Source: Aliikangiella marina
Lineage (GTDB): Bacteria; Pseudomonadota; Gammaproteobacteria; Enterobacterales; Kangiellaceae
Direction of reading: 5' to 3'
DNA: 64,000 nucleotides
NCBI RefSeq assembly: GCF_007004765.1
Contig: NZ_VIKR01000002.1
Coordinates: 868,001 to 932,000, forward strand
In this document: one piece after another, positions 22,988 through 51,310 of the stretch
Numbering within the stretch: position 1 is the stretch's first letter
Layout of the letters: each line of letters starts with the position of its first letter
The notes under the pieces: model-generated
The model's input: only the letters and a program-made list of their open reading frames with translations
What the model was told of the DNA's origin: nothing
Databases searched by the model: none
Program-made: the position numbers and the translations under genes

Positions 22988-23004
22988 TTGGCACAAGGAT
23001 TGCA
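22988..23004 (+). promoter_or_regulatory. Sigma54 promoter of the flgB operon
   Basis: TTGGCACAAGGATTGCA matches the -24/-12 consensus TGGCAC-N5-TTGC fully. It lies about 72 bp before the flgB ATG and should need a FlrC-type activator. Confidence 0.9.
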
Positions 23005-36625: not shown

Positions 36626-36676
36626 ATCGTTACCTATCGATGACTTTTTGAAGTCACGTTGCTTTGTACTAGTAGT

Positions 36677-36703
36677 TTATCGGCCTGCAAATATTCGACT
36701 TTA
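36677..36703 (-). promoter_or_regulatory. Sigma28 (FliA) promoter of fliD operon
   Basis: Minus strand: TAAA, 15 bases, GCCGATAA, a perfect 12 of 12 match at the correct spacing, about 52 bp before fliD. Confidence 0.9.
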
Positions 36704-36856
36704 AATTATTATCAAAATTATCTATATGATTTTAGACTTAAAACAGCTCTTTTTTTATAGAAAATTTGGATAAGAATTCACTTATTGATAGTTAAAATTC
36801 TTGCTGGTTGTATATTGAGAATATCAGCAATATACATACCAGAATGTGTGGGCATT

Positions 36857-36882
36857 AAAAAAGGGGTCGAAACCCCTTTTTT
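36857..36882 (-). terminator. Intrinsic terminator after flaG
   Basis: AAAAAAGGGG, a 6-base loop, CCCCTTTTTT overlapping the flaG stop codon. It separates flaG from fliD. Confidence 0.88.
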
Positions 36883-37309
36883 AAGCTTTTTCCTGTAAGA
36901 GAACACCACTAGCCAATATCCCTTCCTCGCTTAAATCTTTCAATCTTCTAGAGAGATTGAGCAATTCCTCAGGAGGAAACTGGCGGATTAACTCGTCAGT
37001 TGCTTTATCTACGACTTTTACAACAGTAACACCAAGCTCATCGTCGACACGGAATTGAAGACTGCGACTGATCTGCTGATTGAATTCTTGAAGATCTTCA
37101 ATCTCAGTTTTAGCTTCTTCTAATTGACGAGTGTTTGAGTCTGCTTTTGCGTTTCTATTGACCGGTTGTTGAGCTATTTCGACAACCGTTGAGTCATTAC
37201 TTCTGTCGATATCGCTAGTTGAAGGTTGTGCATTAGCTAATGACAGCAAAGACTTGCCGTTATCTCTTAAGACTGGTTGAAAATTGCCAGACAATTCTTC
37301 AATAGCCAT
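36881..37309 (-). CDS. flaG: FlaG family flagellar protein
   Basis: Small protein found between flagellin and fliD genes in polar flagellates, thought to affect filament length. The conserved C-terminal domain (about 75-142) includes ISRSLQFRVDDELGVTVVKV and DELIRQFPPEELLNLSRRL. At 142 residues it is normal. A strong AGGAGG site precedes the ATG, 95 bp after flagellin 1. Confidence 0.92.
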   Translation of the reverse strand: MAIEELSGNFQPVLRDNGKSLLSLANAQPSTSDIDRSNDSTVVEIAQQPVNRNAKADSNTRQLEEAKTEIEDLQEFNQQISRSLQFRVDDELGVTVVKVVDKATDELIRQFPPEELLNLSRRLKDLSEEGILASGVLLQEKA

Positions 37310-37333
37310 AGCAAATTACCTCCTTTGAACAGA

Positions 37334-37368
37334 CAAAGAAACTATGGAAAACTTCGATAATTTCTTTG
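37334..37368 (-). terminator. Hairpin between flagellin 1 and flaG
   Basis: CAAAGAAA and TTTCTTTG form a perfect 8-bp stem around a 19-base loop, followed on the minus strand by a U-rich stretch. It could terminate or stabilise the flagellin 1 transcript. Confidence 0.4.
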
Positions 37369-37404
37369 CCATGTCTTAATTAGCTCTTAGCGTTAAGCTT
37401 CAAC

Positions 37405-38193
37405 TTACTGTAACAAGGACAGTACTGACTGACTTGACGCATTCGCCTGAGCTAATACGGAGAAACCGGCCTGCTGAAGTACCTGGTTTTTAGCCAAGTT
37501 AGCGGTCTCAACTGCATAGTCAGTATCACGGATACGAGATAGTGCTGCTGAAGAGTTCTCAATGTTAGCATTTAGGTTATTCGCTGCAAAAGTTAATCGG
37601 TTTTGCGCCGCACCTAAAATACCTCTTTGCGTGTCAACGGCCGTAATAGCGGTATCAACTGCAGCTAAGCCTGCAGAAGCATCGGTACCGCCCGTATCAA
37701 AAGCCGCACCATCAGTTGTTGCGATAGCGATCGTAGAACTACCATTGGTATCAACGGTGATGTTTGTGGCGTTCGCAGAGAAAACCGCGCCACCCGCAAA
37801 CTCAGTATCGCCAACAATACGCGTTATTTCAGCGTCTAGCGCAGAGAATTCAGCATCCAATGCCGTTTGACCTGCTGCTGTTACCTGACCACTTGATGCC
37901 TGTACCGCGATGTCACGCATACGAAGTAAGATACTACTGATTTCTTGAAGTGCACCCTCTGCCACCTGGGCAAAAGAGATACCATCGTTAGCGTTTCTTG
38001 CTGCGATTCGTGCACCACCGACTTCTTTAGCTAACTGACTCGCGAGTACCAGACCAGACGCATCATCTCGCGCACTGTTGATACGGAAACCAGATGATAA
38101 TCGAGAAAAAGTCGTAGATAGTTCGTTATTGGTTTTAAATAAGCTTTTTTGAGCGCCTAAAGACGCCACGTTAGTTTGGATTACATTACCCAT
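37405..38193 (-). CDS. fliC: Flagellin 1
   Basis: Main filament subunit candidate. The N-terminal D0/D1 domain has SLGAQKSLFKTNNELSTTF and RINSARDDASGLVLASQLA, and the C-terminal D1/D0 has SRIRDTDYAVETANLAKNQV and ASSQSVLSLLQ. With 262 residues, only a short central segment (about 140-180, Gly/Thr/Ala-rich) remains, so D2/D3 are absent. The 5' leader is about 245 nt and carries repeated hairpins with a TTCTCAG loop. A sigma28 element lies upstream, and its start region is complementary to a predicted small RNA at 48.9 kb. Confidence 0.96.
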   Translation of the reverse strand: MGNVIQTNVASLGAQKSLFKTNNELSTTFSRLSSGFRINSARDDASGLVLASQLAKEVGGARIAARNANDGISFAQVAEGALQEISSILLRMRDIAVQASSGQVTAAGQTALDAEFSALDAEITRIVGDTEFAGGAVFSANATNITVDTNGSSTIAIATTDGAAFDTGGTDASAGLAAVDTAITAVDTQRGILGAAQNRLTFAANNLNANIENSSAALSRIRDTDYAVETANLAKNQVLQQAGFSVLAQANASSQSVLSLLQ

Positions 38194-38260
38194 GATAAAT
38201 CTCCTAAACCTTTGATATCTAAATTAAATTAGATTTACAAAGTGCTTAAAAAGTAAGACA

Positions 38261-38440
38261 GCTAGCGGCCTGAGAAACCGTTTTACTATCCGCGTATATT
38301 ACAAAAGTGATGAATATTGCTCTGAGAAGCACCTTTCCATCGATAAATCGGTGTTCCCGCAAAGAAATGAAATCTGAGAAAAATCATCGCCTGAGAAACA
38401 ACAATTTGCTGTCCGCAAGATACTGAGAATATTTTGCGTT
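38261..38440 (-). repeat. Array of CTGAGAA inverted repeats in flagellin 1 leader
   Basis: CTGAGAA (+ strand) occurs at 38270, 38322, 38374, 38391 and 38423. Arms differ but pair in most copies: 9 positions of CGCAAGATA/TATTTTGCG at 38423, ATGA/TCAT with a small internal loop at 38374, TGC/GCA at 38322 and CGG/CCG at 38270. In the mRNA the loop reads UUCUCAG. Confidence 0.8.
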
Positions 38441-38448
38441 CAAAAGAT

Positions 38449-38475
38449 GTATCGGCCCTGAAAAAGGCGAATTTA
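38449..38475 (-). promoter_or_regulatory. Sigma28 (FliA) promoter of flagellin 1
   Basis: Minus strand: TAAA, 15 bases, GCCGATAC, 11 of 12 positions matching. It predicts a 5' leader of about 245 nt. Confidence 0.8.
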
Positions 38476-38575
38476 ATTTACTTTGAAAAAAAAATGAAGA
38501 AAATAGGTGTTTGCCACCTAATCTATTGAAAATTAAGTGAAAATAATTTTAATGATTTCGTAGCAAGCTAAGGAG

Positions 38576-38601
38576 GAGAGAAGGAGCGTACTCCCTCTCT
38601 C
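38576..38601 (-). terminator. Hairpin after flagellin 2
   Basis: An 11-bp stem (GAGAGAAGGAG against CTCCCTCTCTC, with one G-U pair on the minus strand) and a 4-base loop, 50 bp past the flagellin 2 stop. No U-tract follows, so termination is uncertain. Confidence 0.45.
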
Positions 38602-38650
38602 AGGCACCTAAAGTTGTCGTACGGTAGGGGCGTTTTCGGGAATCATGTCA

Positions 38651-39475
38651 TTACCCTTGTAGAAGTGATAGTACGTTCTGAGATGAGGCGTTTGCCTGCC
38701 CCAGGACGCTTAATCCGGCCTGTTGCAGTACCTGGAACTTGGCGAGATTGGAAGTTTCAACGGCATAATCGGCATCCCTTATTCGCGAGCGTGAGGCCGA
38801 GGCGTTCTCGATAATGCTGTTTAAGTTTGAGACCGTTGATGATAATCGGTTCTGGAAAGCACCCAGTCCGCCACGTGCGGTGTCAATAGCGATGATATCT
38901 GCGTCAATATTCGTCAGAACGTTAGAGGCATTCGCTGCTGTATTGATATTGCTTGGCGCGTTACTGGAGTTTAATCCAGTGACATCAGGTAGGGTAACGG
39001 CGATAGTTTCGCCAGCGTTTATACCGACCTGTATGTTGATGGTAGCACCGGTATTCAATACATCGGTATTACCAAATTGGGTTTGGTTGGCGATACGAGT
39101 TATCTCAGCTGAAAGGGCTTGATATTCTGCATCCAGAGCACCTTTTTCAGGTCCAGAGTCCGCGGTTTGTCCGGATGATGCTTGCACCGCTAAATCACGC
39201 ATTCTCAGAAGGATATTAGTAACTTCTTGTAATCCGCCCTCTGTTACCTGGGCGAGAGAAATACCATCATTGGCATTTCTCGCTGCGACCGTAAGGCCGC
39301 CGATTTGAGATGACAGTTGGTTGGATATGAATAGTCCAGATGCATCATCTTTGGCGCTGTTAATTCGGAAACCCGATGATAATCGTTGGAAGGTGGTTGA
39401 TAGGCCACCATTGGTTCCAATCAGATTTCGTTGGGCGTTTAGTGAGGCTACATTAGTCGAGATAACGTTTCCCAT
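38651..39475 (-). CDS. Flagellin 2
   Basis: Second flagellin, 274 residues, paralogous to flagellin 1 and also lacking outer domains. Conserved parts are SLNAQRNLIGTNGGLSTTF, RINSAKDDASGLFISNQLS, SRIRDADYAVETSNLAKFQV and ASSQNVLSLLQG. The central region differs from that of flagellin 1. It has its own sigma28 promoter and a leader of about 215 nt with the same heptamer hairpins, so each flagellin gene appears separately transcribed. Confidence 0.96.
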   Translation of the reverse strand: MGNVISTNVASLNAQRNLIGTNGGLSTTFQRLSSGFRINSAKDDASGLFISNQLSSQIGGLTVAARNANDGISLAQVTEGGLQEVTNILLRMRDLAVQASSGQTADSGPEKGALDAEYQALSAEITRIANQTQFGNTDVLNTGATINIQVGINAGETIAVTLPDVTGLNSSNAPSNINTAANASNVLTNIDADIIAIDTARGGLGAFQNRLSSTVSNLNSIIENASASRSRIRDADYAVETSNLAKFQVLQQAGLSVLGQANASSQNVLSLLQG

Positions 39476-39570
39476 TTTTTTGACTCCTAATCTAACGCTT
39501 CAATACGGGCGGTCAGAGTTTTAAATGCCGTAAATTCGAAGCTATAAATAATTAATAAAAAAATATTTGG

Positions 39571-39690
39571 GAAAGAAACACTGAGAATAATTCTTTCGTA
39601 AAAGAATCAACCATCTGAGAATTGGTGATTAGACTTTAATCTCGAGCTGAGAACTATCGATTAAAGTTGAGGGGGTTGAGAAGTCCCGCT
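39571..39690 (-). repeat. Array of CTGAGAA inverted repeats in flagellin 2 leader
   Basis: CTGAGAA at 39581, 39615 and 39647, and TTGAGAA at 39676. Arms: GAAAGAA/TTCTTTC at 39581, ACCA/TGGT plus TC and GA extensions at 39615, ACTTTAATC/GATTAAAGT with inner AG/CT at 39647, and GGG/CCC at 39676. Spacing is 29-34 bp. Different arms around one constant loop point to RNA structure. Confidence 0.85.
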
Positions 39691-39698
39691 CAATTAAC

Positions 39699-39725
39699 TT
39701 ATCGACTGTGAAAATAGCGACTTTA
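39699..39725 (-). promoter_or_regulatory. Sigma28 (FliA) promoter of flagellin 2
   Basis: Minus strand: TAAA, 15 bases, GTCGATAA, 11 of 12 positions matching the consensus. Confidence 0.82.
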
Positions 39726-39964
39726 AAATATTTTTATTTTATTTCACTTATTTATTGGGTGAGCCATAGAGCGTTGGTATGGATTTTGCCTTATTTCATT
39801 GAATGAACTGTGGATTACTAAACCAATCAAGGCTAAAGTGTTAATAGATAGGTCTTTTTAGTTTCCTGACTCATCGTCATTACGCATTACTTTTAATTTG
39901 CTGTTGATGGCGAAGTTTGATGATAACGCGAGCGACGTCTCGCCTCGATAATTAAAGAGCGATT
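39726..39964 (+). other. Spacer before the glycosylation island, nothing recognised
   Basis: About 240 bp upstream of the glycosyltransferase gene. No promoter of convincing quality, repeat or RNA gene was recognised on either strand beyond the adjoining flagellin 2 promoter. Confidence 0.4.
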
Positions 39965-41899
39965 ATGCCAAAGAAGAGAAATAAGCGAGTAAAAAGTAAG
40001 GCAAGTCAAAAAAGTTTACACAAAAAGGCCCGAGGTGGATTGCAAGTAACTTCAGGCTCGGAATTCGTTTTAGAGACTTTTGAGGGATATGTTTACGGAG
40101 GTAAGCATACACAGGCACTCGGTTATTTGTTGAATTTGCTGGGAACATTCGAAGAGTTTATGCTGATTCAACATAAAGAAGAGCCCTATCAGCTATTTCA
40201 ACTCAGAAAGCAGCGTTGGTCGACAAGACTTGCCTCAGCTTGTTGTGCACTTTTTGTCAATCCAAATTGGAATTTTGATGATGAGCAGTACTTTTATTTA
40301 AGTCGATTCCATGATTGGTATGGAAAGATCTTTGAGTTATCGCAAGCCGGAGACTCAAACTATGTATTGGATTTAATAAATAGCACAAAATATCGCTCTG
40401 ATGAACAGATGCTAAAGCGTTTCTATCTGCATCTTACACTTAATTCACCCGTTGAAATTTATCGAATGCTTAACCTAAATAGAGACTTAGCATTACCGAT
40501 CATTCTCTCTTTAGTCGGCGATAGTTGCACCTTAATTACCCGACACGAAGACAATCGAAGCGTTTTGATTCAAAACTTTGATGCATTAACGAGCGAGTCC
40601 AATTTACATCAACAATATCTTGGTGCAATTCATAAATCTTGGATGCTTTGCAGTTATGCCATCGATGACCGAAAGCACCTAGTCAAACTTGGCATCAATA
40701 AGTTAATTCGTAAACTATTAAGCTTTGTTAAAGAAAGTAGTCTGGCTACAAAAAAAACGATAAGACCCAGTATTGCAGTTTTAATCGAAGTCTGTCGGAC
40801 TAGCCATGTGATGTATCGCTGTTATGGTGACCGTATCAAGTCGTTAAGGGAAACTTTCGATGTTACGATTTACGCAAATAAAGACGACATTGACGAAACC
40901 GTTGCGGGATTAGCGGATAGCGTGGTTTATGTTGATATTAATAGTGAATCGATCCAAGCTGTTGCGGATAAAATCAGGACGGCCGATCACGATATTATTT
41001 ATTACCCCAGTTTAGGCATGGCAAATTGGACTGTATTTACAGCGAATTTGAGGCTAGCGCCGGTTCAATGTATGTCTTTAGGGCATCCTGCAACGAGTTG
41101 TTCTAGTCAAATGGATTTTGTAATACATCCCAAAGACGTTTTAGCAGACCCGTATTGTTTTACCGAGAAGGTTGTTGTTGGTGACTTTACGCCAAACTAT
41201 ATCGCACCAAAAATTGATGAAGAAATTGAGTTTATGGAAACTAATGACGATATCGTCAGAGTGGCGATAGTTTCTAAATATATGAAGATTAATTTGTTAA
41301 TGATTGAAGTCTGTAAAGAGTTGTTAAAACACTGTAAAGCAAAAATTGAATTTCATTTCTTTCCTGATACTAAGGGGTTATTGCTCGACTATATTACCCA
41401 AATAGTGAAAAGTGAATTGCCCGCAAGTGGTGTCTTTCCGACTATGTCTTACAAGAACTATATGCAGTTTTTAAGTCGTTGTGATTTACGGATTGGGACG
41501 TTTCCTTTCTCAGGAACAAATACGACGATAGACTGTTTTTCCATGGGAGTACCAACCATTGCATTCGATGGACCAGAAGTGTCAAGCCATTTCGATAGCG
41601 TTGTAATTAACCGTCACTGTCCAGAAGTTCATGATGATCTAGTCGCGTCGACTGTCGAGGACTTGATTTCCAAATGTGTACGAATGATTGATGATGAAGC
41701 CTTTCGGCTTCAGATTTCAGAAAAAATTAAAAGTATTGATATTGATAAAACAATATTTAAAAGTACTTCAAGCAATTCACAAACCCAATTCGCAGACACG
41801 ATTTTGTGGGCGTACCAAAACATTGAAGAAATAAGAAACTCAAGTGAACAGGTTTTTGAAGCTGATTTAGGCCCGACTCTTGAAAAAATTGCGCCTTAA
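39965..41899 (+). CDS. GT41 (HMW1C-like) protein glycosyltransferase
   Basis: Probable cytoplasmic glycosyltransferase acting on protein, here most likely flagellin. The C-terminal half resembles the HMW1C/O-GlcNAc-transferase GT-B fold: APVQCMSLGHPATSCSSQMD near residue 362 matches the HMW1C motif APVQ...LGHPATT, and later segments include SGTNTTIDCFSMGVPTIAFDGP, the nucleotide-sugar site. The first 280 residues are helical without clear TPRs, as in HMW1C. At 644 residues it is similar to that family. The substrate (flagellin) and whether linkage is via Asn or Ser/Thr are inferred from position only. Confidence 0.75.
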   Translation: MPKKRNKRVKSKASQKSLHKKARGGLQVTSGSEFVLETFEGYVYGGKHTQALGYLLNLLGTFEEFMLIQHKEEPYQLFQLRKQRWSTRLASACCALFVNPNWNFDDEQYFYLSRFHDWYGKIFELSQAGDSNYVLDLINSTKYRSDEQMLKRFYLHLTLNSPVEIYRMLNLNRDLALPIILSLVGDSCTLITRHEDNRSVLIQNFDALTSESNLHQQYLGAIHKSWMLCSYAIDDRKHLVKLGINKLIRKLLSFVKESSLATKKTIRPSIAVLIEVCRTSHVMYRCYGDRIKSLRETFDVTIYANKDDIDETVAGLADSVVYVDINSESIQAVADKIRTADHDIIYYPSLGMANWTVFTANLRLAPVQCMSLGHPATSCSSQMDFVIHPKDVLADPYCFTEKVVVGDFTPNYIAPKIDEEIEFMETNDDIVRVAIVSKYMKINLLMIEVCKELLKHCKAKIEFHFFPDTKGLLLDYITQIVKSELPASGVFPTMSYKNYMQFLSRCDLRIGTFPFSGTNTTIDCFSMGVPTIAFDGPEVSSHFDSVVINRHCPEVHDDLVASTVEDLISKCVRMIDDEAFRLQISEKIKSIDIDKTIFKSTSSNSQTQFADTILWAYQNIEEIRNSSEQVFEADLGPTLEKIAP

Positions 41900-41909
41900 G
41901 GACCTTTAA

Positions 41910-42923
41910 TTGTTTAATTGGATTAATAAACGCACTCGCCGTTTTAAGCGTAACAATGAACTCGATCAATATCTCGAAGAATTGACAGATATACTCTGTT
42001 CTGCCGAAAACCAACTACCTGTATCGAAGCGTAATGCTGACTGTCCAGTTGTGTTTATTGTGGGGCCGCCACGGGCAGGTACCACGTTATTAATGCAGGT
42101 TATTGCTCAATCAGGTTGTTTTACTTACCCGACCAATTTTTTATCTCGGTTTTATGGGGCGTTAGAAATTGGATACAAAATTCAACGGATACTTTTTGAT
42201 GGGCAGTTGCAGTATCGTGATGAGTTAAATCTTAATCAACAGCCCCTCGACTTCGAGTCTGACTTAGGTAAAACTACTGGGGCATTATCGCCAAATGTGT
42301 TTTGGTATTTCTGGTATCATCACTTTCAATTTGGCGAACTATCTTATTTATCAAAAGACCAATTCCACCGCTCAAATACCGAACGTTTTAAGCATGAGCT
42401 GGCTAGGCTTTATGCCGTTTCTTCGCAGCCAATTGCGATGAAGGCAATGATTATTAACTGGAATGTTTTAGATTTTGCAGGGCTTTTACCTAATGCAGTT
42501 TTCTTGAGAGTTAAACGGGAAACACCTTATGTTGCTAACTCTATTTATGAGGCAAGAAAAACGGTCATGGGAAGTTATGCCAATTGGTGGTCATTTAAGC
42601 CGCCAGAATTTGACCAGTTAAAAAGCCTTTCTCCAAAAGAGCAAGTTGCGGGGCAATGTTTATCCATTGAGTATGCATTAGACGAGGCCTTTTCGAAGTT
42701 AAAAAGTACTCAAAAACTTGAGTGTCACTACGAAAAAATTTGTAAAAATCCCCAAGGTTTTATTGATGAGTTATGCCAGTTAATGAACGCTGAAGACACA
42801 GATACGAACAAGGTAACTTACCCACGGTTTAGCATGTCTAATTCGATGGATAAAGCTTTAGAAGACGAATGGCAGACTCATTTAAATCAGGTTGCTAGCA
42901 AAGTTAGCTTTGCTAGCAAATAA
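41910..42923 (+). CDS. Sulfotransferase family protein
   Basis: Likely transfers sulfate from PAPS. The 5'-phosphosulfate loop is VGPPRAGTTLLMQVIAQSG near residue 53, and a 3'-phosphate-binding-like segment ends around FLRVKRETPYVANSIYEARK. At 337 residues it is typical of Sulfotransfer_3-type enzymes. The start is TTG with AAGGA eight bases upstream, 10 bp after the glycosyltransferase gene, so the two form one transcript. A sulfated flagellin glycan is a possible product, by inference. Confidence 0.78.
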   Translation: MFNWINKRTRRFKRNNELDQYLEELTDILCSAENQLPVSKRNADCPVVFIVGPPRAGTTLLMQVIAQSGCFTYPTNFLSRFYGALEIGYKIQRILFDGQLQYRDELNLNQQPLDFESDLGKTTGALSPNVFWYFWYHHFQFGELSYLSKDQFHRSNTERFKHELARLYAVSSQPIAMKAMIINWNVLDFAGLLPNAVFLRVKRETPYVANSIYEARKTVMGSYANWWSFKPPEFDQLKSLSPKEQVAGQCLSIEYALDEAFSKLKSTQKLECHYEKICKNPQGFIDELCQLMNAEDTDTNKVTYPRFSMSNSMDKALEDEWQTHLNQVASKVSFASK

Positions 42924-42950
42924 CATTGACTCATAAAATAAGGTTACCGC

Positions 42951-43628
42951 TTACTCTGTCATGTGGGTGCCATTGAACATTGGATGATTGTTTTCTAGAG
43001 AGCCAATAGAGCTAAATACGTGGAGGGGTAAAACGATAAGGTGCTCACCGTCGGTCTCAAAATGATGAGGGCACATTTTCTCTAGGACAACAACTTTCCC
43101 AGGGTAGAGGTCCTCAACGATATTTTTATCATTCATACCGACAATACTTCGGCCGGTCCCCTTTAAAATATAAGCAACTCGAACCGTTGAATGAATATGG
43201 TGCGCTTGTTCTGATGAAAATGGTGGAATATCTAAAATTTGTAAAGTTGGATCGCCCAAGCGAGCAGGAGAGAACACTTGTTTAGTGGAACATCCGTTAA
43301 CGTAGGGTAAATTTGTTTTAGTCACTATTTCTGAGCTTTTATTTTCCGGCATATAGCCGCGAATAACGGTCGCGACGTGAAAACTTTCTACTTGTTTTTC
43401 TCCGCGCTGCATGAAAGCAGTGGTTTTATCTTCTGATATATAAAATATACAGTCACCTCGCTCGACTGTTAACTGATGGTGGCCGACGTATACCGTGTAA
43501 AAATAGAGATCATCTTCACGAGCTTCAACCACGGCTTTGTTATTGGGTTCGAAATATTGAACGCCGAATAACGATTTCATATATTCGTTGCTCATTTCCT
43601 GCTGGTTATTAACTTTTGGATGTCCCAT
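42951..43628 (-). CDS. Cupin-domain protein
   Basis: A 225-residue protein with a C-terminal cupin fold: HHIHSTVRVAYILKGTGRSIV carries the metal-binding histidines, and VVVLEKMCPHHFETDGEHLI the second cupin motif. The N-terminal half may be a second, degenerate cupin. The ATG at 43628 follows GGGGAG; the ORF also has an upstream TTG. Cupins occur in sugar biosynthesis as isomerases or epimerases, but the function here is not known. It is the last gene of the minus-strand set that starts at the aminotransferase. Confidence 0.7.
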   Translation of the reverse strand: MGHPKVNNQQEMSNEYMKSLFGVQYFEPNNKAVVEAREDDLYFYTVYVGHHQLTVERGDCIFYISEDKTTAFMQRGEKQVESFHVATVIRGYMPENKSSEIVTKTNLPYVNGCSTKQVFSPARLGDPTLQILDIPPFSSEQAHHIHSTVRVAYILKGTGRSIVGMNDKNIVEDLYPGKVVVLEKMCPHHFETDGEHLIVLPLHVFSSIGSLENNHPMFNGTHMTE

Positions 43629-43705
43629 CAAAACTCCCCTTATTTAGGTGCGGTTTAACGTTAGTTTTACTCATTATCGGCAAAAAATTTACCGAAATTA
43701 ATTTT

Positions 43706-44329
43706 TCATCTAATTTTTTTCGCAGGAGCGCCAGCAAAAACTGAATTTGCCTCGGTATCCCTTATCACGGTGGAGCCTGATCCTATCAGGCCATGAGCTG
43801 CAATATGTAAGTCCGGATTGATAGTCGTATTACTACCAATGAAGCAATTTTTTTCGACTCTAGTGCCGCCAGTAACCACTACGTGAGGTGCAAGTACCGA
43901 ATTTTCTCCGATCAGTACATCGACTCCGATAGTGCTACTTTCTTCAATTAAAACGTTGTTTTCAATAATCGCGCCTGTTTGAATAACACTATAGGGTTGA
44001 ATGACAACACCCTTGCCGATTTTACTCCTTGGGTACTGGATGACCGTTGGGTGAATTAGCGTAGCAAGAGTTAAGTTTTGAGCAGCACAAGTTTTTGCAA
44101 GCGCTTTTCGCTTAGCCATATGTGATATGCATATAATGAGCTGTGCCTGATGTTTTGTTTGGAGTTCATCTAGAATTTCGGTATTTCCGAGAACGGGTAA
44201 ATCATCCACGATTGTTCCTGGAGACATAGTATCATCCGCAAATCCAAGCACCTTAAACTGACAAACTTCTGCCAAGCATCGAGTAAACCGACCGAATCTT
44301 CCTCCGCCGATAATGATAAGATTATTCAT
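43706..44329 (-). CDS. PglD/NeuD-type sugar N-acyltransferase
   Basis: Likely acylates the amino group of a UDP- or dTDP-4-amino-sugar. The N-terminal Rossmann-like domain starts NNLIIIGGGRFGRFTRCLAE. The rest is a left-handed beta-helix of hexapeptide repeats (about 95-195, such as IGKGVVIQPYSVIQTGAIIE and IGENSVLAPHVVV), ending GSGSTVIRD...AGAPAKKIR. At 207 residues it matches PglD. It overlaps the preceding acyl-CoA ligase gene by 8 bp, which suggests that ligase supplies its acyl donor. Confidence 0.85.
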   Translation of the reverse strand: MNNLIIIGGGRFGRFTRCLAEVCQFKVLGFADDTMSPGTIVDDLPVLGNTEILDELQTKHQAQLIICISHMAKRKALAKTCAAQNLTLATLIHPTVIQYPRSKIGKGVVIQPYSVIQTGAIIENNVLIEESSTIGVDVLIGENSVLAPHVVVTGGTRVEKNCFIGSNTTINPDLHIAAHGLIGSGSTVIRDTEANSVFAGAPAKKIR

Positions 44330-46247
44330 GCTTATTAATCACTCCGATAAATGCGAGTACCGTCCGCCTGAATTTGAGCGGCGAAATTGTCAAAGAATAT
44401 TCGTTTAATGGCATTTCATTTATTTGGTCCATGATGCTCTCATAAGAAGCAATTTTATTGCCAAGTTTGTGCAACAATAAATAAATTGGATTATTCAACC
44501 CGCTAGAGATTTTTTTTGGTATCGAAAAAAACACAAGGCAGTCGCCTTTATTCATTGAATCTATAGTTGACTGATTAACGGCTACATTCTGTAATGCCCC
44601 CAACTGGATTTTGTTGCCAGAGTCTTTGTGAGCAACAATGCCTCGCTCGAGGAAGTTCTCGGAGAAGCTTGGCGTCGGAAAGTTAAATAACTCGAAGATC
44701 ATTAAAACTTGTTGCTTGAGTGTACTAATAATTAGCTCTTCTGATAGATTGTTTCGTTTCATAGGGGCTATTTTATTAAATAGCTCGGATATTTGGGGAC
44801 GATATCGTTCTGGAATGATTTGACTGAGACATCTTTCTAAACTGACTTGTTCGTTAGTTTTTAATCGGTCGTAGTATTTCAAACTCCATAATATTTTTAA
44901 AATATCGTGGCTGACTCCTTGAAAAGAAAAAATGGAAGCGCCTTCTTTAATCCTTTGTGGTTTTCCGGTTGAAGTACGAGATATCGTCTTAAATGTAACG
45001 CTGGCGGGAATTTTGTTGACCTGCATAAAGTGTTGAGTTACTTCGCTCGGTGATAACCTGTCTGAATCTTGATTTTGTGTGTCGATAATGACTCCCACCT
45101 CATTGTCGAGTGCTTTATGTTTCGTTGGTACTACGATAAAAGGTAAACTAATTTCAAGTTGTTCTTTGAAATTTTCTTCTAACTCTGCAGGGTGGAGCGA
45201 CTCTCCGCCTCGATTGATAATTTCTTTTTTCCTGCCTTGTAAAACGAGATAGTTACCCCTTAAAACGCCAATATCTCCAGTGTGCAACCAGTTATTCTCA
45301 CTAATTGTATTTTGGGTTTCCTCTTCATTACGCCAGTAACCCTGCATATTATTAGGGCCTTGGACTAAAACTTCCCCATCTGCAGCAATCTTTAGCGCTG
45401 TTCCCTCGAGTGGTAATCCGACTGGTGGATAATCCCATAGGTATTCTTTGACAAACAATGACTTTGTCAATTCTGGCATGACAAATGAAAAGTTGACTGC
45501 CTCAGACAAACCATAACCTTGTCTAAGTTTTGGACCATATTGGTCATAAAATCTTTTGGCGAGATCTTTGCTTAATGGTGCTGCCGCAGTTATTAAGTAT
45601 TTTAATTGATTGGGCCATTGGGGTTTAGAGTCTAAAAGCTGCTCAAGAAGTGCAGGGACGATTGAAGCTGTTGTAACTTGTTCAGCGTCGAGTAGTTTAA
45701 AGTAGGTATCAGCCTCAAAGGAACTGAGTAGGACCAGTGGACAGTTTGAAAGGTAGCACCCGATAAGCGACATCATCAATGCGTTACAATGATAAAGCGG
45801 TAAACAGGTTGCGTGTGACTGATTTGGCGAAAATTGATGTAGCTTCGAGACAGCTTCAGCGTTGTGAGTTACGGCCTGAATATTCTGAATTACGCCTTTT
45901 GGGCTGCCAGTTGAGCCCGATGTATAAATGATGAATCGATGATCTTTACTCGATTTAATAGTGCTTGTCCTGGGCTGGTATTTTATCACGCCATGTTTAC
46001 GAAAAAATACGCCGTCGACGTCGGCATGCTCAATGATGTATTGCTTTTGATGCTCGGTAAGACTCGGAGTAATTGGCACCGAAACAGCCTGTTTTTTAAA
46101 AACTTCGATTAAGATTAATGCGAGGTCGAGACCATTTTCTAAATCAATGCAATAGCGCTTTCCAGGCTCTATGATCTCGAACAATCCATTTGGAATCGTT
46201 TTACTAATGAGACCTCGAGAGGATGTGTAAGCAGTTATTGAAAACAA
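44322..46247 (-). CDS. AMP-forming acyl-CoA synthetase with C-terminal extension
   Basis: Adenylates a carboxylic acid and probably transfers it to CoA or a carrier. The ATP-binding P-loop is FIIYTSGSTGSPKGVIQN near residue 108, followed by QGYGLSEAVNF and the hinge region LHTGDIGVLRGNYLVLQGRKKEIINRGG (split over two motifs). The usual catalytic lysine segment STGKPQR is present near residue 432. About 190 further residues follow the AMP-binding part and were not recognised. The start is a TTG with GAGG upstream. In context it likely activates the acyl group placed on the flagellin sugar by the neighbouring PglD-like enzyme. Confidence 0.82.
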   Translation of the reverse strand: MFSITAYTSSRGLISKTIPNGLFEIIEPGKRYCIDLENGLDLALILIEVFKKQAVSVPITPSLTEHQKQYIIEHADVDGVFFRKHGVIKYQPRTSTIKSSKDHRFIIYTSGSTGSPKGVIQNIQAVTHNAEAVSKLHQFSPNQSHATCLPLYHCNALMMSLIGCYLSNCPLVLLSSFEADTYFKLLDAEQVTTASIVPALLEQLLDSKPQWPNQLKYLITAAAPLSKDLAKRFYDQYGPKLRQGYGLSEAVNFSFVMPELTKSLFVKEYLWDYPPVGLPLEGTALKIAADGEVLVQGPNNMQGYWRNEEETQNTISENNWLHTGDIGVLRGNYLVLQGRKKEIINRGGESLHPAELEENFKEQLEISLPFIVVPTKHKALDNEVGVIIDTQNQDSDRLSPSEVTQHFMQVNKIPASVTFKTISRTSTGKPQRIKEGASIFSFQGVSHDILKILWSLKYYDRLKTNEQVSLERCLSQIIPERYRPQISELFNKIAPMKRNNLSEELIISTLKQQVLMIFELFNFPTPSFSENFLERGIVAHKDSGNKIQLGALQNVAVNQSTIDSMNKGDCLVFFSIPKKISSGLNNPIYLLLHKLGNKIASYESIMDQINEMPLNEYSLTISPLKFRRTVLAFIGVINKHE

Positions 46248-46317
46248 ATTAACCTCGTAGATTTAAAACAATGCTTCATTTGACTCGGACATTAAAATCG
46301 ACAAATGAAAATACGGA

Positions 46318-47412
46318 TTATTTCTTACGCAGATAAAGCGTATCACCGGAACAAAATGCTGTAGACAGCTCAAGAGTCGCGAGTAATTCATTACCGGCTC
46401 TTTGAGGTCCATCACCGAATGCCCAAAGATAATCGTCAATCAGAATCCATCCACCGCTGGCTACCAATGGAGTCCATAATTCAATATCCTTTTTAACCTG
46501 ATCATATCGATGATTGCCGTCAATGTGCAACAAAGCGATTGTTCCATTAAGTTTAATTGAACCTAAGTTTTCGCTGACCGCTTCGCCTTTTTTCGAAGCA
46601 ATTAAATAATCAGTGTGCGCATCAGCGGATTTTTTTTTGATGTAGCCTATATTGTCTTGCAAAGCGGCATTAGCCATAAAAATAGAGAAAATGTTGTCAA
46701 ACCTGATAGAATCGATTTGTGAGTTAAGTAGTTCAGCTGATTTGCCTTGATGATCTGACTTTTCATTGAACCAATGATCAATGCAGAGTACGTTCCCTAG
46801 TTGATATTTCTTGGCAAGCCAACTCAACGTGATCGCAGAGCGTCCGTATAATGTGCCAATTTCAATGATATCCCCGTCAGGTAAAACTCTCGCCACTTCA
46901 CATAAATCGAATAACTTATCTTCATCACACTGTCCTGGAATATCGAGGAATTTTTTGTGAAGCCCGCTGTACTCAAACTCAGTCAGTGATGATTTAACAG
47001 TAACGTTTGAGGCTAAATAGTTTACGTAAGCGTATTGAGTTACCGCGTTTGCCCATTTTTTACTTATCGAATGTTCATCCCATATAGCTTCGAAGGGATG
47101 AGGTTGGTTCAAAAAAAGTTCAAAGTTTAGAAGTCCTGATTCACTCAGCTTATTTAGGCTTACCCAAACTCCAACATGTGGAGTGTATACATGAGTTATT
47201 TCGAGCCTTCTTGCGAGATTGCTGAATGCTTCTTCAAAATTGTCAGCGGTTATGTAAGGTAAGTAATAACAATCCTTTATTGCAGACGTTTTGAAAGATA
47301 CAGCTGATGAAGCAAAACTAATTTTAAAGCCCAATGTCCTCGCATAACGCGCAAACCGCTGCGCTGAGTCCATTTCTTTTGGAAAAATAAGTAAATGATT
47401 TTTTTCGCTCAT
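46318..47412 (-). CDS. SAM-dependent methyltransferase with N-terminal preATP-like domain
   Basis: The C-terminal half (about 165-364) is a class I methyltransferase: DGDIIEIGTLYGRSAITLSWL is the SAM-binding strand and glycine loop, and ALLHIDGNHRYDQVKKDIELW with GGWILIDDYLW fits the Methyltransf_24/TylF-like group. The first about 110 residues (LLIFPKEMDSAQRFARYARTLG...THVYTPHVGVWVSL) look like the N-terminal Rossmann lobe of ATP-grasp enzymes, but no ATP-grasp catalytic part follows. At 364 residues it may be a fusion. It is probably part of sugar modification in this island; its substrate is unknown. Confidence 0.7.
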   Translation of the reverse strand: MSEKNHLLIFPKEMDSAQRFARYARTLGFKISFASSAVSFKTSAIKDCYYLPYITADNFEEAFSNLARRLEITHVYTPHVGVWVSLNKLSESGLLNFELFLNQPHPFEAIWDEHSISKKWANAVTQYAYVNYLASNVTVKSSLTEFEYSGLHKKFLDIPGQCDEDKLFDLCEVARVLPDGDIIEIGTLYGRSAITLSWLAKKYQLGNVLCIDHWFNEKSDHQGKSAELLNSQIDSIRFDNIFSIFMANAALQDNIGYIKKKSADAHTDYLIASKKGEAVSENLGSIKLNGTIALLHIDGNHRYDQVKKDIELWTPLVASGGWILIDDYLWAFGDGPQRAGNELLATLELSTAFCSGDTLYLRKK

Positions 47413-47450
47413 CGGCTAACTAATTGGGTCGGTTAAAGTTCAGATAGTGA

Positions 47451-48572
47451 CTAAATCGCAATATCGTGGTTAACAATTAAAAATTCCGACAAAGTATTAC
47501 AAACCCTATCGACGTCTTGTTGCGTCATTTCCAAGTGGAATGGAAGTCCCAAAAGCGAATTTGCGACCTGCTTGGCGTGTTTCAAATCACTGGCACATTT
47601 TAGGTGTTGAAAGCCCGAATGTTGGGGAAGAATTGGACAATACCACCTTCTAGTTTCGATATTTTTATTAGCCAAATATTCTTGCACGTCTTTATTAAGC
47701 ACATTATTGCCAAATGTAATAACGAAAGTACTTAATACGTGTTGTGATATATTCGGTTGCGTATTGACTGGGAGTTTGAGCTCATTGATTTGATCGAGAT
47801 ATTTGCTGAGTAACTTTAGTCGAAATGCTTTTTGTTGTTCCCAAAGTGAGAGGCTTGCTAAGCCGACTGCAGCGTGATACTCGCTTTGTTTGGCGTTGCA
47901 TCCTCGGCTTTGATCGACATTTTTAGTCTTTGCATCGATACCAAAATTGCTTGATTGTTTGCACCAAAGGTTATGCGCCCGGTTGTTAGAAACTATCAGC
48001 CCCCCCTCACCGGTAGAAAAACTTTTGGTCGCATGGGTGCTGAATACAGTGATGGTCTTGCAACCGATATTTTGATTACCGAATGCACCAGCAGCATCGA
48101 CGATTACCGGTATATCGGTTTCCGCTACGAATTCGTCCCAGGCAACTTGATTGACTGGTAAGCCGAAAGTAGCAACCGGAATTACTGCGTCGAAAGCCTG
48201 ATGCTTTAGCGCGTCGCATGCAATTTTCGGTGTTAATTGCCATGAGTCCGGATCAATATCAGAGATGATTGGCTGATAGCCGAGGCTCGAAACCGCAGTC
48301 GCGGTAGCCGGGAAAGTAAGTGCAGGTACTAAAATTTTTGCACCACGCTTTAAGTTTAAAGAGCTTATTGCCACTTCAAGTGCGCTTGTGCCACTTGAGG
48401 TAGTCGCAACGAAAGCGTCAGTAAAGTGGCGCTCGAGTTCTTTAGTGAGCTTTTGATTGAGTGGACCGAAATTTGTATACCATCGGTTTTGGTCTATTTG
48501 CCTTAAAAAAGGCAAGAGCATCTCTGCATCGGGCAGTCTTGGTTTTAACAGGTGAACTTTATTTTTTTTCAT
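47451..48572 (-). CDS. DegT/DnrJ/EryC1-type sugar aminotransferase
   Basis: PLP-dependent enzyme that converts a keto-nucleotide-sugar to the amino-sugar, similar to VioA/RffA-type enzymes. The PLP lysine lies in VFSTHATKSFSTGEGGLIVS near residue 176, and ATTSSGTSALEVAI near residue 57 is the cofactor-binding loop. The ATG at 48572 (MKKNKVHLLKPRLPDAE) has AAGG upstream and matches the family start; an ATG nine codons earlier is possible. At 373 residues it is standard. It is the first gene of the five-gene minus-strand island, with a sigma70-like promoter just upstream. Confidence 0.88.
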   Translation of the reverse strand: MKKNKVHLLKPRLPDAEMLLPFLRQIDQNRWYTNFGPLNQKLTKELERHFTDAFVATTSSGTSALEVAISSLNLKRGAKILVPALTFPATATAVSSLGYQPIISDIDPDSWQLTPKIACDALKHQAFDAVIPVATFGLPVNQVAWDEFVAETDIPVIVDAAGAFGNQNIGCKTITVFSTHATKSFSTGEGGLIVSNNRAHNLWCKQSSNFGIDAKTKNVDQSRGCNAKQSEYHAAVGLASLSLWEQQKAFRLKLLSKYLDQINELKLPVNTQPNISQHVLSTFVITFGNNVLNKDVQEYLANKNIETRRWYCPILPQHSGFQHLKCASDLKHAKQVANSLLGLPFHLEMTQQDVDRVCNTLSEFLIVNHDIAI

Positions 48573-48642
48573 AAATTTCGTTACCTTAAGCCGTGACATT
48601 CAAAAGAGTTTTAGAACTTTCTCATTTCTAAGCGTTGCTTTG

Positions 48643-48670
48643 AGTATACGGTAAATAGTTGATTATTCAA
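48643..48670 (-). promoter_or_regulatory. Candidate sigma70 promoter of the glycosylation genes
   Basis: Minus strand: TTGAAT, 16-bp spacer, TATACT. Transcription would start about 60 bp before the aminotransferase ATG. Confidence 0.55.
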
Positions 48671-48861
48671 TAAATAAACAAAAAACATGCCAAAAACAAC
48701 GGATGAAAAGTGCGTCGTAGCGTGCTCGCTCGCGTTAAAAAAAGTTTCTGACAGTTATAACTATTTTTCCAACTTTGGAGGTTAGCAGTTGGCTGACTTT
48801 AACTATTATGTATGAACTTAATGACTCACTGAGAAAAGAAAAAAATCGTTTATCAATAAAG

Positions 48862-48878
48862 TTGGCACACCCATTGCT
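48862..48878 (+). promoter_or_regulatory. Sigma54 promoter of a small RNA
   Basis: TTGGCACACCCATTGCT matches TGGCAC-N5-TTGC fully. No protein gene follows in this direction for over 700 bp; a terminator lies about 215 bp downstream. Confidence 0.8.
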
Positions 48879-48883
48879 TTTAG

Positions 48884-48940
48884 TTAACTAGCCAACATAA
48901 ATGTGAGCGTTGAAAAATCATTACCCATGATAGATCTCCT
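48884..48940 (-). pseudogene. Flagellin 5'-end relic
   Basis: On the minus strand, the Shine-Dalgarno AGGAGA and start ATGGGTAATG match flagellin 1 at 21 of 22 positions. The frame then departs from flagellin and stops after 14 codons (48884). It looks like the 5' end of a lost third flagellin gene, or a copied fragment. Confidence 0.6.
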
Positions 48941-48989
48941 TATGCTTATGTCGGTCACGTTCTTCGGAACATTGCTATAGCTTAAGGCT

Positions 48990-49064
48990 TAGGTTGCTGA
49001 GAACAGCTTATTTCAAGGGCTACAGCGCGAAGATTAAAGGCGAGTGGTTGCTGAGAACAACCAC
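48990..49064 (+). repeat. Two CTGAGAA-loop inverted repeats in the small-RNA region
   Basis: TAGGTTG-CTGAGAA-CAGCTTA (48990-49010) and GTGGTTG-CTGAGAA-CAACCAC (49044-49064). The second stem is perfect. The first pairs fully only as + strand RNA, through two G-U pairs. Confidence 0.8.
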
Positions 49065-49091
49065 ATTGCACTTAAACTTCAGTCGTACGGT

Positions 49092-49122
49092 AAGGGGTCG
49101 TAAAGCGACCCCTTTCTCTTTT
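49092..49122 (+). terminator. Intrinsic terminator of the small RNA
   Basis: AAGGGGTCG, loop TAAAG, CGACCCCTT: a perfect 9-bp stem followed by the pyrimidine run TTCTCTTTTCT. Confidence 0.8.
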
Positions 49123-49624
49123 CTGCAAGTCTGATTTTTTCTTCCGGTAAATTACTTGCCGCAAACTAAGGCAAATGTTTGCCACTCTTATTTCCGCTAA
49201 TTGAGATACAAGCCAGTTGAGTGAAGCAGTAGACTCAACGATAAGGCTGTCGAAACAAATGAATAATCTGGAATAGAATAGAAGCGGGTCAAGATGTCGG
49301 CATTTTTTTGACTAATCGAAGAATTACCGTGATTAAATGTATGAAAAAATGATGATTTTTATTTGTAAACGAATTGTAAATAGGAAGTAAACTTTGATTA
49401 CTTTTTTGTAATGCTTCGACCAGTTTAACTTTTTTACGGTCGCAACTACTTGATTTTATGAGAAAAAAAACACTGTATAAAAACTATTCTTTTTTATAAG
49501 AAATTATTTAGTGACAATTCTTTGACAAATAAAATACCCTCTACTAAAACTTAGGCTATATGATTAATTTTTATATGTTTTTGGTCAATTGTTGTTCGAT
49601 ACCAGGTTCTAAGGGATGGTAAAA
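49123..49624 (+). other. AT-rich upstream region of flrA
   Basis: About 500 bp without a supportable gene. The only site seen is a possible flrA promoter (entered separately). A TGTTTGCCAC sequence near 49169 also occurs upstream of flagellin 1 near 38508, which fits the idea that this stretch derives from a flagellin upstream region. Confidence 0.4.
49522..49550 (+). promoter_or_regulatory. Candidate sigma70 promoter of flrA
   Basis: Perfect -35 TTGACA, 17-bp spacer, weak -10 TAAAAC. A sigma70 promoter for the top-level regulator is expected in this hierarchy. Confidence 0.35.
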
Positions 49625-51073
49625 ATGGTAGAAAACAAAAAGCTGTTAATAATCGATGATAATAAAGAACGTAGTCACGACTTAAAAACAGTCTTTGATT
49701 TTATTGGTGAGGAATGCCAAGAAGCAAACAGCAAAAATTGGCAAGACGTTTTTTCGCCAGTCGATTCACTTATTGGTGTATTGATAGGTGAAGCTTCTCA
49801 TTATCGAGACATTGTCGGCTTGATAGAGAAAATAAGCTCACTCGATTCCACAATGCCTGTATTGCTGTTAGATGATGTTCAAATGACAGGTAACATTTCT
49901 CAAAAGCTATCCCGCCAAATTGTTGGAAGACTCAGCTGGCCATTAAAACAAAGCGAAGTACTTGAAGTTATTCATTCTTGTCAGTATTGCAGAGATAACC
50001 AACATGCTTTCAGTGAAGAGAACAAATCACTTGAGTTATTTCGAAGCATGGTCGGCCAAAGCGAAGCCATGCAAGAAATTCGAAAGCTTATTGAACAAGT
50101 CGCCTCAACTGACGCGAGCGTGTTAATTACGGGTGAGTCTGGAACAGGGAAAGAAGTCGCTGCTCGGAATCTACATTATTTGTCCGATCGTTCAGATAAA
50201 CCTTTTGTTCCGATCAACTGTGGCGCAATTCCCGCCGAACTTTTAGAGAGTGAATTGTTTGGTCATGAAAAAGGGGCTTTTACTGGCGCCTTGACCGCGA
50301 GAAAAGGACGCTTCGAACTTGCGCAAGGTGGCACAATTTTTCTCGATGAGATTGGCGATATGCCACTGCCAATGCAGGTGAAGCTGTTAAGAGTTTTGCA
50401 AGAGAAAACGTTTGAGAGAGTTGGTAGCAACCAACCAATCCAAGCGGACGTTAGAATCATTGCGGCAACCCACCGAGAGTTAGAACAAGAAGTAAAGGAA
50501 AACCGATTTCGAGAAGACCTCTTTTATCGCTTAAACGTTTTTCCGATCGAAATGCCTGCGTTACGTGATCGAGCAAGTGATATTCCTCTGTTGGTTAACG
50601 AGTTAGTTGCTCGTCTTGAAAACGATCAAAGAGGTTCTGTAAGACTCAGCCCTAATGCCATTCAATCGCTCATGCAAAGTCCATGGCCAGGTAATGTTAG
50701 AGAATTGGCCAACCTTATCGAAAGATTGTGTATTCTTTATCCCTATGGCGTTGTTGACTTAAAAGACTTACCGACAGACTATCAAAACAAAGAAGGAATC
50801 GATTCTTATCCTGAACCAGAGCTCGCTGAACGACGCGCCAAAGTTCAAGAAACTACAGCGGTCGCTCCGTTAGCTGGCCCATCTCCACTGGCGAACCTTC
50901 CAGAAAGCGGTGTTAATTTAAAAGAGTTTGTAGCAAAGCTGGAAATTTCTTACATCGAGCAAGCTCTCGCAGAAGAGGACTGGGTTGTTGCGCGAGCAGC
51001 AAAAAGATTAGGTATGCGCAGGACCACCCTCGTTGAAAAAATGCGTAAGTACGATCTCCAAAAGGCTAGCTAG
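49625..51073 (+). CDS. flrA: Sigma54-dependent flagellar master regulator FlrA/FleQ
   Basis: Top-level activator of sigma54 flagellar promoters. The N-terminal FleQ-type receiver-like domain ([16 protein letters not shown]) lacks a clear phosphoacceptor. The AAA+ domain has Walker A GESGTGKE, the sigma54 contact loop GAFTGA, and [13 protein letters not shown], and a C-terminal Fis-type helix-turn-helix ends [19 protein letters not shown]. The ATG at 49625 is chosen because AAGGG lies at proper distance; an ATG three codons upstream overlaps that site. It gives 482 residues. FleQ homologues bind c-di-GMP; whether this one does cannot be told. Confidence 0.93.
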
Positions 51074-51164: not shown

Positions 51165-51181
51165 TAGGCACACTAATTGCT
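51165..51181 (+). promoter_or_regulatory. Sigma54 promoter of flrBC-fliE operon
   Basis: TAGGCACACTAATTGCT: GG and GC at the strict -24/-12 distance and an otherwise good match, 130 bp before the flrB ATG. It is presumably activated by FlrA. Confidence 0.8.
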
Positions 51182-51310
51182 TTATCTCTAGTTAAACAGT
51201 CAATAGGAAAATTTATTGACGCTCTTGAGTATCCTACGAGCTAACGAACTGATGGTTCAAAGTTCACAGGCTCGTTGAAATACAATAGAAAATTTTACAG
51301 AGAGGTAGCG

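Follow-up and report, generated by a model that had tools for sequence, protein, structure and literature searches.

A predicted sigma54-dependent small RNA with three complementarities to flagellin messages in Aliikangiella marina and its relatives

The segment 48889-49122 (+) of the window, the 64,000-nucleotide stretch of Aliikangiella marina DNA analysed here, very likely encodes a sigma54-made, terminator-ended trans-acting small RNA (sRNA), which would recognise flagellin mRNAs by three contacts and block translation of the flaB-type flagellin. Because it is predicted to pair with flagellin messages, including one start site, this RNA probably controls when filament protein is made. Comparison with related genomes supports an RNA gene, a fold on the + strand and three complementarities with co-changes between RNA and target (few of them for the loops), and from these we infer transcription, kissing in cells, repression and the timing role. 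Flagellin-dedicated small RNAs have rarely been described, and the present one, with copies in three further families, would make as many as three distinct contacts, among them one through repeated loops of full complementarity. If confirmed, it would be a case of a sigma54-made RNA that gates flagellin messages made by sigma28 and would offer a natural system for RNAs with multiple kissing contacts, and it makes testable the question of which flagellin is translated first in multi-flagellin bacteria.

The predicted RNA gene and its distribution

The predicted gene sits in the gap between the ORFs 47451-48599 (-) and 49616-51073 (+). Its parts are listed below.

48889-49122 (+): predicted small RNA of about 234 nt, from conservation and RNAalifold
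48863-48878 (+): sigma54 (-24/-12) promoter TGGCACACCCATTGCT, exact pattern match, predicted +1 at about 48889
48919-48940 (+): anti-Shine-Dalgarno/start block (anti-RBS block) against flagellin 1 (38184-38205), 22-nt run with one G-U
48959-48970 (+): UUCG-loop hairpin GTTC-TTCG-GAAC, from sequence and consensus fold
48991-49009 (+): hairpin 1, loop CTGAGAA at 48997-49003, 6 of 6 flanking pairs, covariation (RNAalifold)
49044-49064 (+): hairpin 2, loop CTGAGAA at 49051-49057, covarying stem
49082-49098 (+): 3' tail GTCGTACGGTAAGGGGT, complement of the flagellin 2 3'UTR, duplex of -29.8 kcal/mol
49092-49122 (+): intrinsic terminator, 10-pair stem (49092-49114) plus T-rich tail, stem kept in relatives

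The initial annotation had described a full-consensus -24/-12 promoter and an intrinsic terminator around some 230 bp with no supported gene, and all three statements held. TGGCACACCCATTGCT matches the sigma54 pattern exactly, as does only one other site in the 64-kb window (at 22989), and the terminator stem with its T-rich tail was found again. No conserved reading frame was found between promoter and terminator in an alignment of 12 copies; as judged by eye, the frame that the antisense ATG opens on the minus strand (MGND...) does not last beyond a few codons in the relatives, where it either diverges or meets a stop. With promoter and terminator both conserved, 48889-49122 (+) is a predicted small RNA gene forming a predicted transcription unit of its own.

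In the RNAalifold consensus of 12 sequences, both partners have changed in 17 of the 66 predicted pairs (the alignment also held promoter columns, which are involved in 4 of the 66 pairs). For the 3' module, 93.1% of cells are paired among 16 sequences, and the covariation score was reached in 0 of 500 shuffles and lies above every slid version of the alignment; the tool warns that such pairing and covariation scores can arise from kinship without structure. Six of the eight pairs in the hairpin 2 stem show both-side changes, and its loop is invariant (16 of 16). The CUGAGAA loop stems contain 30 G-U against 1 A-C on the sRNA strand, which argues that the fold belongs to the + strand RNA. According to the predicted fold, the loops of hairpins 1 and 2 have mean unpaired probabilities of 0.79 and 0.93, respectively, and the anti-RBS block is half paired (0.47).

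We searched for relatives in 40 genomes of the own family (Kangiellaceae), 394 genomes of the order and a 369-genome sample of the class; G-numbers denote genomes, and the 22 genomes mentioned below are 19 of the own family and 3 of family f14. By DNA search, 20 of the 40 family genomes match at E<=0.01, and 12 of these matches (the window's own included) span at least 200 nt, the others at most 75 nt. The promoter core is invariant and the anti-RBS block nearly invariant in the oriented 12-copy alignment, in which the two hairpins, the terminator and a conserved tail can also be seen. A further five copies, of diverged sequence, were found next to flagellin genes, then two more. A covariance model of the 3' half of the RNA, built from 16 copies, matches 19 of the 40 family genomes (weakest G013, E 0.0018). 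It turned out that the carriers are exactly the 19 flagellin-bearing family genomes, and the 21 flagellin-less ones gave no covariance-model match, so that sRNA and flagellin are either both present or both missing in 40 of 40. The model included 16 of the 19 carriers, and G007, G013 and G039, which were left out of it, were still matched, as were all three genomes of family f14, none of them in the model. The GG-N10-GC promoter core occurs in 21 of the 22 copies in the own family and f14, the exception being G076 with GT at -12.

An order-wide pattern search for the promoter combined with the anti-RBS core gave matches in 22 of the 394 genomes, with a backwards control of zero in every row: 14 belong to the own family, 2 to f14, 2 to f13 (G051, G094) and 2 to f4 (G042, G067), the others being G683 and G742. 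The f4 and f13 sites are divergent to a flagellin 206-405 nt away, whose start matches over 13-20 nt, and the G094 site is a genuine, shorter relative of the sRNA. Together, the copies in the own family, f14, f4 and f13 mean that the RNA spans at least four families and 26 genomes, and the shorter f4 and f13 relatives may show how it was built up.

Several other matches were taken as chance, namely G683 and G742 from the order-wide pattern and the order-level model matches G130 and G191 (E about 0.015). In the class sample, the covariance model matched 7 of 369 genomes at E<=0.01, the own genome among them; the other six matches hold no CTGAGAA inside and were also regarded as chance. The class-sample match L132 has one CTGAGAA some 70 nt upstream. 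A pattern search of genome contigs gave 30 stretches, and those in Treponema, Kribbella, Paenibacillus and so on were likewise set aside. The plasmid collection had no match to the sRNA. No Rfam family matched over the locus (cmscan of 36500-51000, E up to 5), the only match in this range being sR5 at 41688-41740, below its gathering score. Rfam includes RNAIII, and the cmscan of 36500-51000 gave no sign of homology to it.

Complementarity to the flagellin messages

The window carries two flagellin genes, for which we coined the names flaA-type (38651-39475) and flaB-type (37405-38193) in this analysis. Their relevant features are as follows.

37405-38193 (-): flagellin 1 (flaB-type, MGNVIQTN...), ORF with PF00669, anti-RBS target
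38184-38205 (-): anti-RBS target by complementarity, comprising the flagellin 1 Shine-Dalgarno (SD) and its first three codons, start codon included
38194-38440 (-): flagellin 1 leader with five UUCUCAG sites (38270, 38322, 38374, 38391, 38423)
38450-38475 (-): flagellin 1 sigma28-like promoter TAAA-N15-GCCGATA, from sequence, relaxed pattern
38616-38630 (-): flagellin 2 3'UTR site CCCCTACCGTACGAC, complement of the sRNA tail
38651-39475 (-): flagellin 2 (flaA-type, MGNVISTN...), ORF with PF00669
39480-39700 (-): flagellin 2 leader with three UUCUCAG sites (39581, 39615, 39647)

The initial annotation had reported 22 bases complementary to the SD and start of flagellin 1, with 21 matches and one G-U, and we reproduced exactly this: sRNA 48919-48940 and mRNA 38205-38184 form a 22-nt run of 21 Watson-Crick pairs and one G-U. 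Among 49 starts (all ORFs of at least 150 aa in the window, first start codon used), the flagellin 1 start gives the best duplex with the RNA 5' domain (-41.3 kcal/mol; next -34.0). At least one flagellin matches the block at its start codon in every one of the 22 genomes, with runs of 13-25 nt, and a second flagellin also matches in G013, G052 and G095. The contiguous run reaches over the SD in 16 of the 22 and stops before the full SD in six (G001, G002, G005, G036-G038); in Pleionea-like genomes the block is present but shortened. In a permutation test, own pairs scored 18.9 (run minus G-U) against 15.5 for permuted ones (0 of 20,000); the shuffles and permutations for all modules leave the relatedness among genomes in place.

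Several changes in the start region are accompanied by changes in the RNA. G013 has a perfect 25-nt run on its own RBS variant, G005 has GTAGTG with CACTAC, family f14 has GGAGACC with GGTCTCC where most g1/g2 genomes have GGAGATTT with AAATCTCC, and f13 has ATGGC in the mRNA with GCCAT in the RNA. G008 carries GTAGTG without a co-change, its pairing being kept through G-U, and G001 has an uncompensated indel in its anti-RBS block. By eye, there are about five independent co-changes for the RBS, two or three for the tail and two for the loops. Start-region complementarity is conserved in all 22 genomes and in four more of f4 and f13, with the co-changes given above. The flaA-type start is not above background against the RNA 5' domain in 21 of 21 genomes (lowest fraction 0.052), and the flaA-type RBS was accordingly rejected as a second blocking target. 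On the whole, the conserved promoter, structure and terminator and the RNA-target co-changes lend comparative support to the core claim of a sigma54 sRNA antisense to the flagellin 1 RBS. The pairing originally described covers the anti-RBS module; the CTGAGAA hairpins, the TTCTCAG leader sites and the tail with its 3'UTR site (38616-38630) are additions of the present analysis.

The second complementarity lies between hairpin loops. Two or three CTGAGAA sites were found in the sRNA of each of the 22 genomes, the 7-mer is unchanged in all of them, and 30 of 37 distinct stems reach at least 5 of 6 flanking pairs (the third loop of G013 has 2 of 6). Its exact complement, UUCUCAG, occurs in 49 of 52 flagellin leaders (125 sites), mostly in hairpin loops. 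In the window, the sites have 5, 1, 4, 6 and 5 of 6 flanking pairs in the flagellin 1 leader and 5, 4 and 3 in the flagellin 2 leader, in the order listed, and the 38322 site with its single pair misfits the 7-nt-loop frame. In average, leader-site flanks form 4.58 of 6 pairs against 2.56 with arms swapped (0 of 5,000), and 92 other places with the 7-mer served as control (2.38 against 2.35 swapped). On the flagellin sense strand the stems contain 65 G-U against 21 A-C, and of the 106 distinct leader sites, 60 have at least 5 of the 6 pairs. Both RNAs carry exact 7-nt complements in apical loops, with arms that pair on the sense strand, as a predicted contact. The leader motif was found in 0 of 24 scorable flagellins from ten other families. 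In f4, G042 has the RNA loop CTGAGAA with TTCTCAG in the leader at -185 and -144, and the G067 loop is CTGAGAG, its leader sites being TTCTCAG (-171) and CTCTCAG (-130). In f13, the RNA loops read CCGGGAA in G094 and CGGGAA in G051, and the target leaders carry TTCCCG at -85 and -87, a 6-nt match estimated to occur by chance in about 5% of 200-nt leaders and doubtful in its hairpin context. These would be two events of apparent co-change between RNA loop and leader, one in G067 and one in f13.

The third complementarity involves the 3' tail. CCCCTACCGTACGAC or a variant lies about 20-30 nt past the flaA-type stop (57 in G013) and complements GTCGTACGGTAAGGGG of the RNA. Over 20 genomes the tail duplex has -30.6 kcal/mol for own pairs and -27.3 for permuted ones (0 of 20,000), and the two controls, shuffled 3'UTRs and the flaB-type 3'UTR (19 genomes), gave -14.7 and -11.3, respectively. 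Co-changes occur in G002 (CCGCACA with TGTGCGG) and in G035 and G039 (CTGTACGT with ACGTACAG), the changes in G005 and G038 are uncompensated, and the tail duplex of G095 is weak (-23.1). By reading, no tail was seen in the f4 and f13 copies; it is confined to the own family and f14.

In line with the initial annotation, which had stated sigma28 promoters, both flagellins of the window have sigma28-like ones, that of flagellin 2, directly upstream of its leader, by the strict pattern and that of flagellin 1 by the relaxed one. The strict pattern was found at 20 of 52 flagellins and the relaxed one at 43 of 52, against 30 of 1,040 mononucleotide-shuffled sequences, and a strict sigma54 pattern at 0 of 52. 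The RNA starts less than 0.8 kb from the flaA-type gene and divergent to it in 15 of the 22 genomes, is 1.8-13 kb away in G000, G006, G011 and G013, and lies on another contig in G001, G007 and G012.

Proposed mode of action and alternative explanations

In the mechanism that we propose, the sRNA would be transcribed alongside earlier flagellar genes by sigma54 polymerase, with FlrA or FlrC as the presumed activator, and could, as the initial annotation put forward, delay flagellin translation until export is ready; RpoN and Hfq genes are encoded. Recognition would proceed by three collinear, antiparallel steps, in which the CUGAGAA loops would kiss the UUCUCAG loops in the leaders of both flagellins, the 3' tail would pair just past the flaA-type stop codon, and the 5' block, after docking by the loops, would cover the flaB-type start codon and usually the SD too, which should block flaB-type translation. 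The flaA-type mRNA, with loops and tail site, may serve as a decoy or be altered in stability. A tentative and rather doubtful extension is that the system orders the two flagellins in the own family. The flaA-type mRNA, with its loops and strong 3'UTR site, would be the decoy, which could bind the RNA and still be translated since it has no RBS match, while the flaB-type mRNA, with loops and RBS match, would stay silent until the flaA-type mRNA has titrated the sRNA, leading to a filament with unlike base and tip. The second flagellin retrieved from f4 (G067) and from f13 (G051) has no loop motif, a poor fit to such ordering, which would therefore be a later addition.

The same contacts could be read in other ways. 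It is unlikely that the RNA activates or protects flagellin mRNA through the 3'UTR and leader contacts rather than repressing it: the tail and leader sites do lie away from any RBS and the flaA-type starts are at background (21 of 21, lowest fraction 0.052), but flaB-type pairing over the start codon, usually with the SD, is the standard repressing geometry. The 7-mer in the loops, constant throughout the 22 genomes, might also suggest that the UUCUCAG hairpins are sites of an RNA-binding protein and that the sRNA acts through the RBS block only. We consider this improbable, as all 22 RNAs carry two or three exact complements with mostly well-paired stems (30 of 37 at 5 of 6 pairs or better), G067 and f13 show apparent co-changes of loop and leader, and the motif is absent from the 24 scorable flagellins of ten other families.

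Two further explanations concern the gene itself. With flrA downstream in the same orientation, the segment could be its 5' leader (regulatory UTR or attenuator), and flrA begins 0.2-0.6 kb past the RNA in 10 of the 22 genomes, the window included; yet the distance is 1.8-9.2 kb in eight (G002, G008, G013, G035, G037-G039, G052), no flrA match of at least 50% identity was found in the stretch fetched for G005, G006, G011 and G036, the terminator is strong and conserved, and the predicted pairing is with flagellins, which makes a flrA leader very improbable. The initial annotation had suggested a decayed third flagellin gene as the origin. The RNA order of anti-RBS block, loops and tail is indeed the reverse of the flaB RBS, leader loops and flaA 3'UTR in the tandem region, so far in agreement with it, but no coding remnant is seen past the first codons; the RNA may be described as a condensed antisense of the flaA-flaB region, perhaps derived from an inverted copy. 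Collinearity of the minus strand with flaA-3'UTR, leader sites, flaB RBS and start would also be expected from a functionless decayed flagellin or leader, whose complementarity reflects common ancestry and nothing else. We give this reading hardly any credence, for promoter and terminator are conserved on the + strand, the G-U excess (30 against 1 A-C) is specific to that strand, no minus-strand frame is conserved by eye, the RNA co-changes with its target, and its presence tracks flagellin in 40 of 40 family genomes. The sRNA acting on flagellin messages is thus the explanation that we prefer.

Known RNA systems and genomic surroundings

Parts of the proposed system resemble known RNAs. ColE1 RNA I and RNA II, a sense/antisense pair in cis-encoded control of plasmid replication, also have fully complementary 7-nt hairpin loops, whereas the present RNA comes from a separate chromosomal gene. 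The decoys CsrB and RsmZ have repeated identical hairpin loops as well; theirs contain GGA, while CUGAGAA does not. A Vibrio RNA is reportedly named FlaX.

Three published systems may be compared here. RNAIII of S. aureus binds coa mRNA by an SD duplex and a loop-loop contact on the same mRNA (PMC2837412), and the present RNA is predicted to be likewise a structured trans RNA that combines both. It differs from RNAIII in target and promoter class, in having up to three identical loops that face repeated loops 5' of the RBS, and in a predicted contact with the 3'UTR of the neighbouring flagellin. CJnc230/FlmE of C. jejuni is RpoN-dependent, is processed from the flgE mRNA and represses flgM and Cj1387c, and its overexpression raises flagellin (PMC11187230). 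Both would be RpoN-class, mRNA-repressing small RNAs of the flagellar hierarchy, but the present one has its own sigma54 promoter, is aimed at flagellins and sits between flagellin-side genes and flrA. UhpU, MotR, FliX and FlgO of E. coli are sigma28-dependent and UTR-derived; UhpU, MotR and FliX alter flagellin levels, and MotR and FliX pair within coding sequences (PMC10578931). They are also small RNAs of flagellar genes, whereas the present gene is intergenic with its own sigma54 promoter, not sigma28-dependent or UTR-derived. As far as these accounts of RNAIII, CJnc230 and the E. coli flagellar sRNAs go, none includes a three-part recognition of flagellin. No description of such an RNA was found in Rfam or among the papers listed by searches of a PMC collection, which leaves most subscription journals and preprints outside.

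Besides, several features of the surroundings were recorded. The other exact sigma54 match of the window is TGGCACAAGGATTGCA at 22989-23004 (+). A one-mismatch sigma54 site, AGGCACACTAATTGCT (51166-51181, +), lies about 100 nt 5' of the ORF at 51275, whose product reads as a histidine-kinase-like, FlrB-like protein. Between the flagellins and the RNA gene, the segment 39965-48599 resembles, by reading, a cluster of flagellin glycosylation genes, with aminotransferase-, ligase- and acyltransferase-like products. The shorter f4 and f13 relatives of the RNA (L205, L206, L207, L208) are flagellin-divergent, with altered loops and no tail. The flaA-type frame of G011 (L067, around 5886, -) ends after 157 codons, unlike in its relatives. 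Within the same genera, some species have flagellins of about 257-278 aa and others have flagellins of about 480-555 aa, a contrast that sets G000, G002, G012, G036 and G038 against the other family members.
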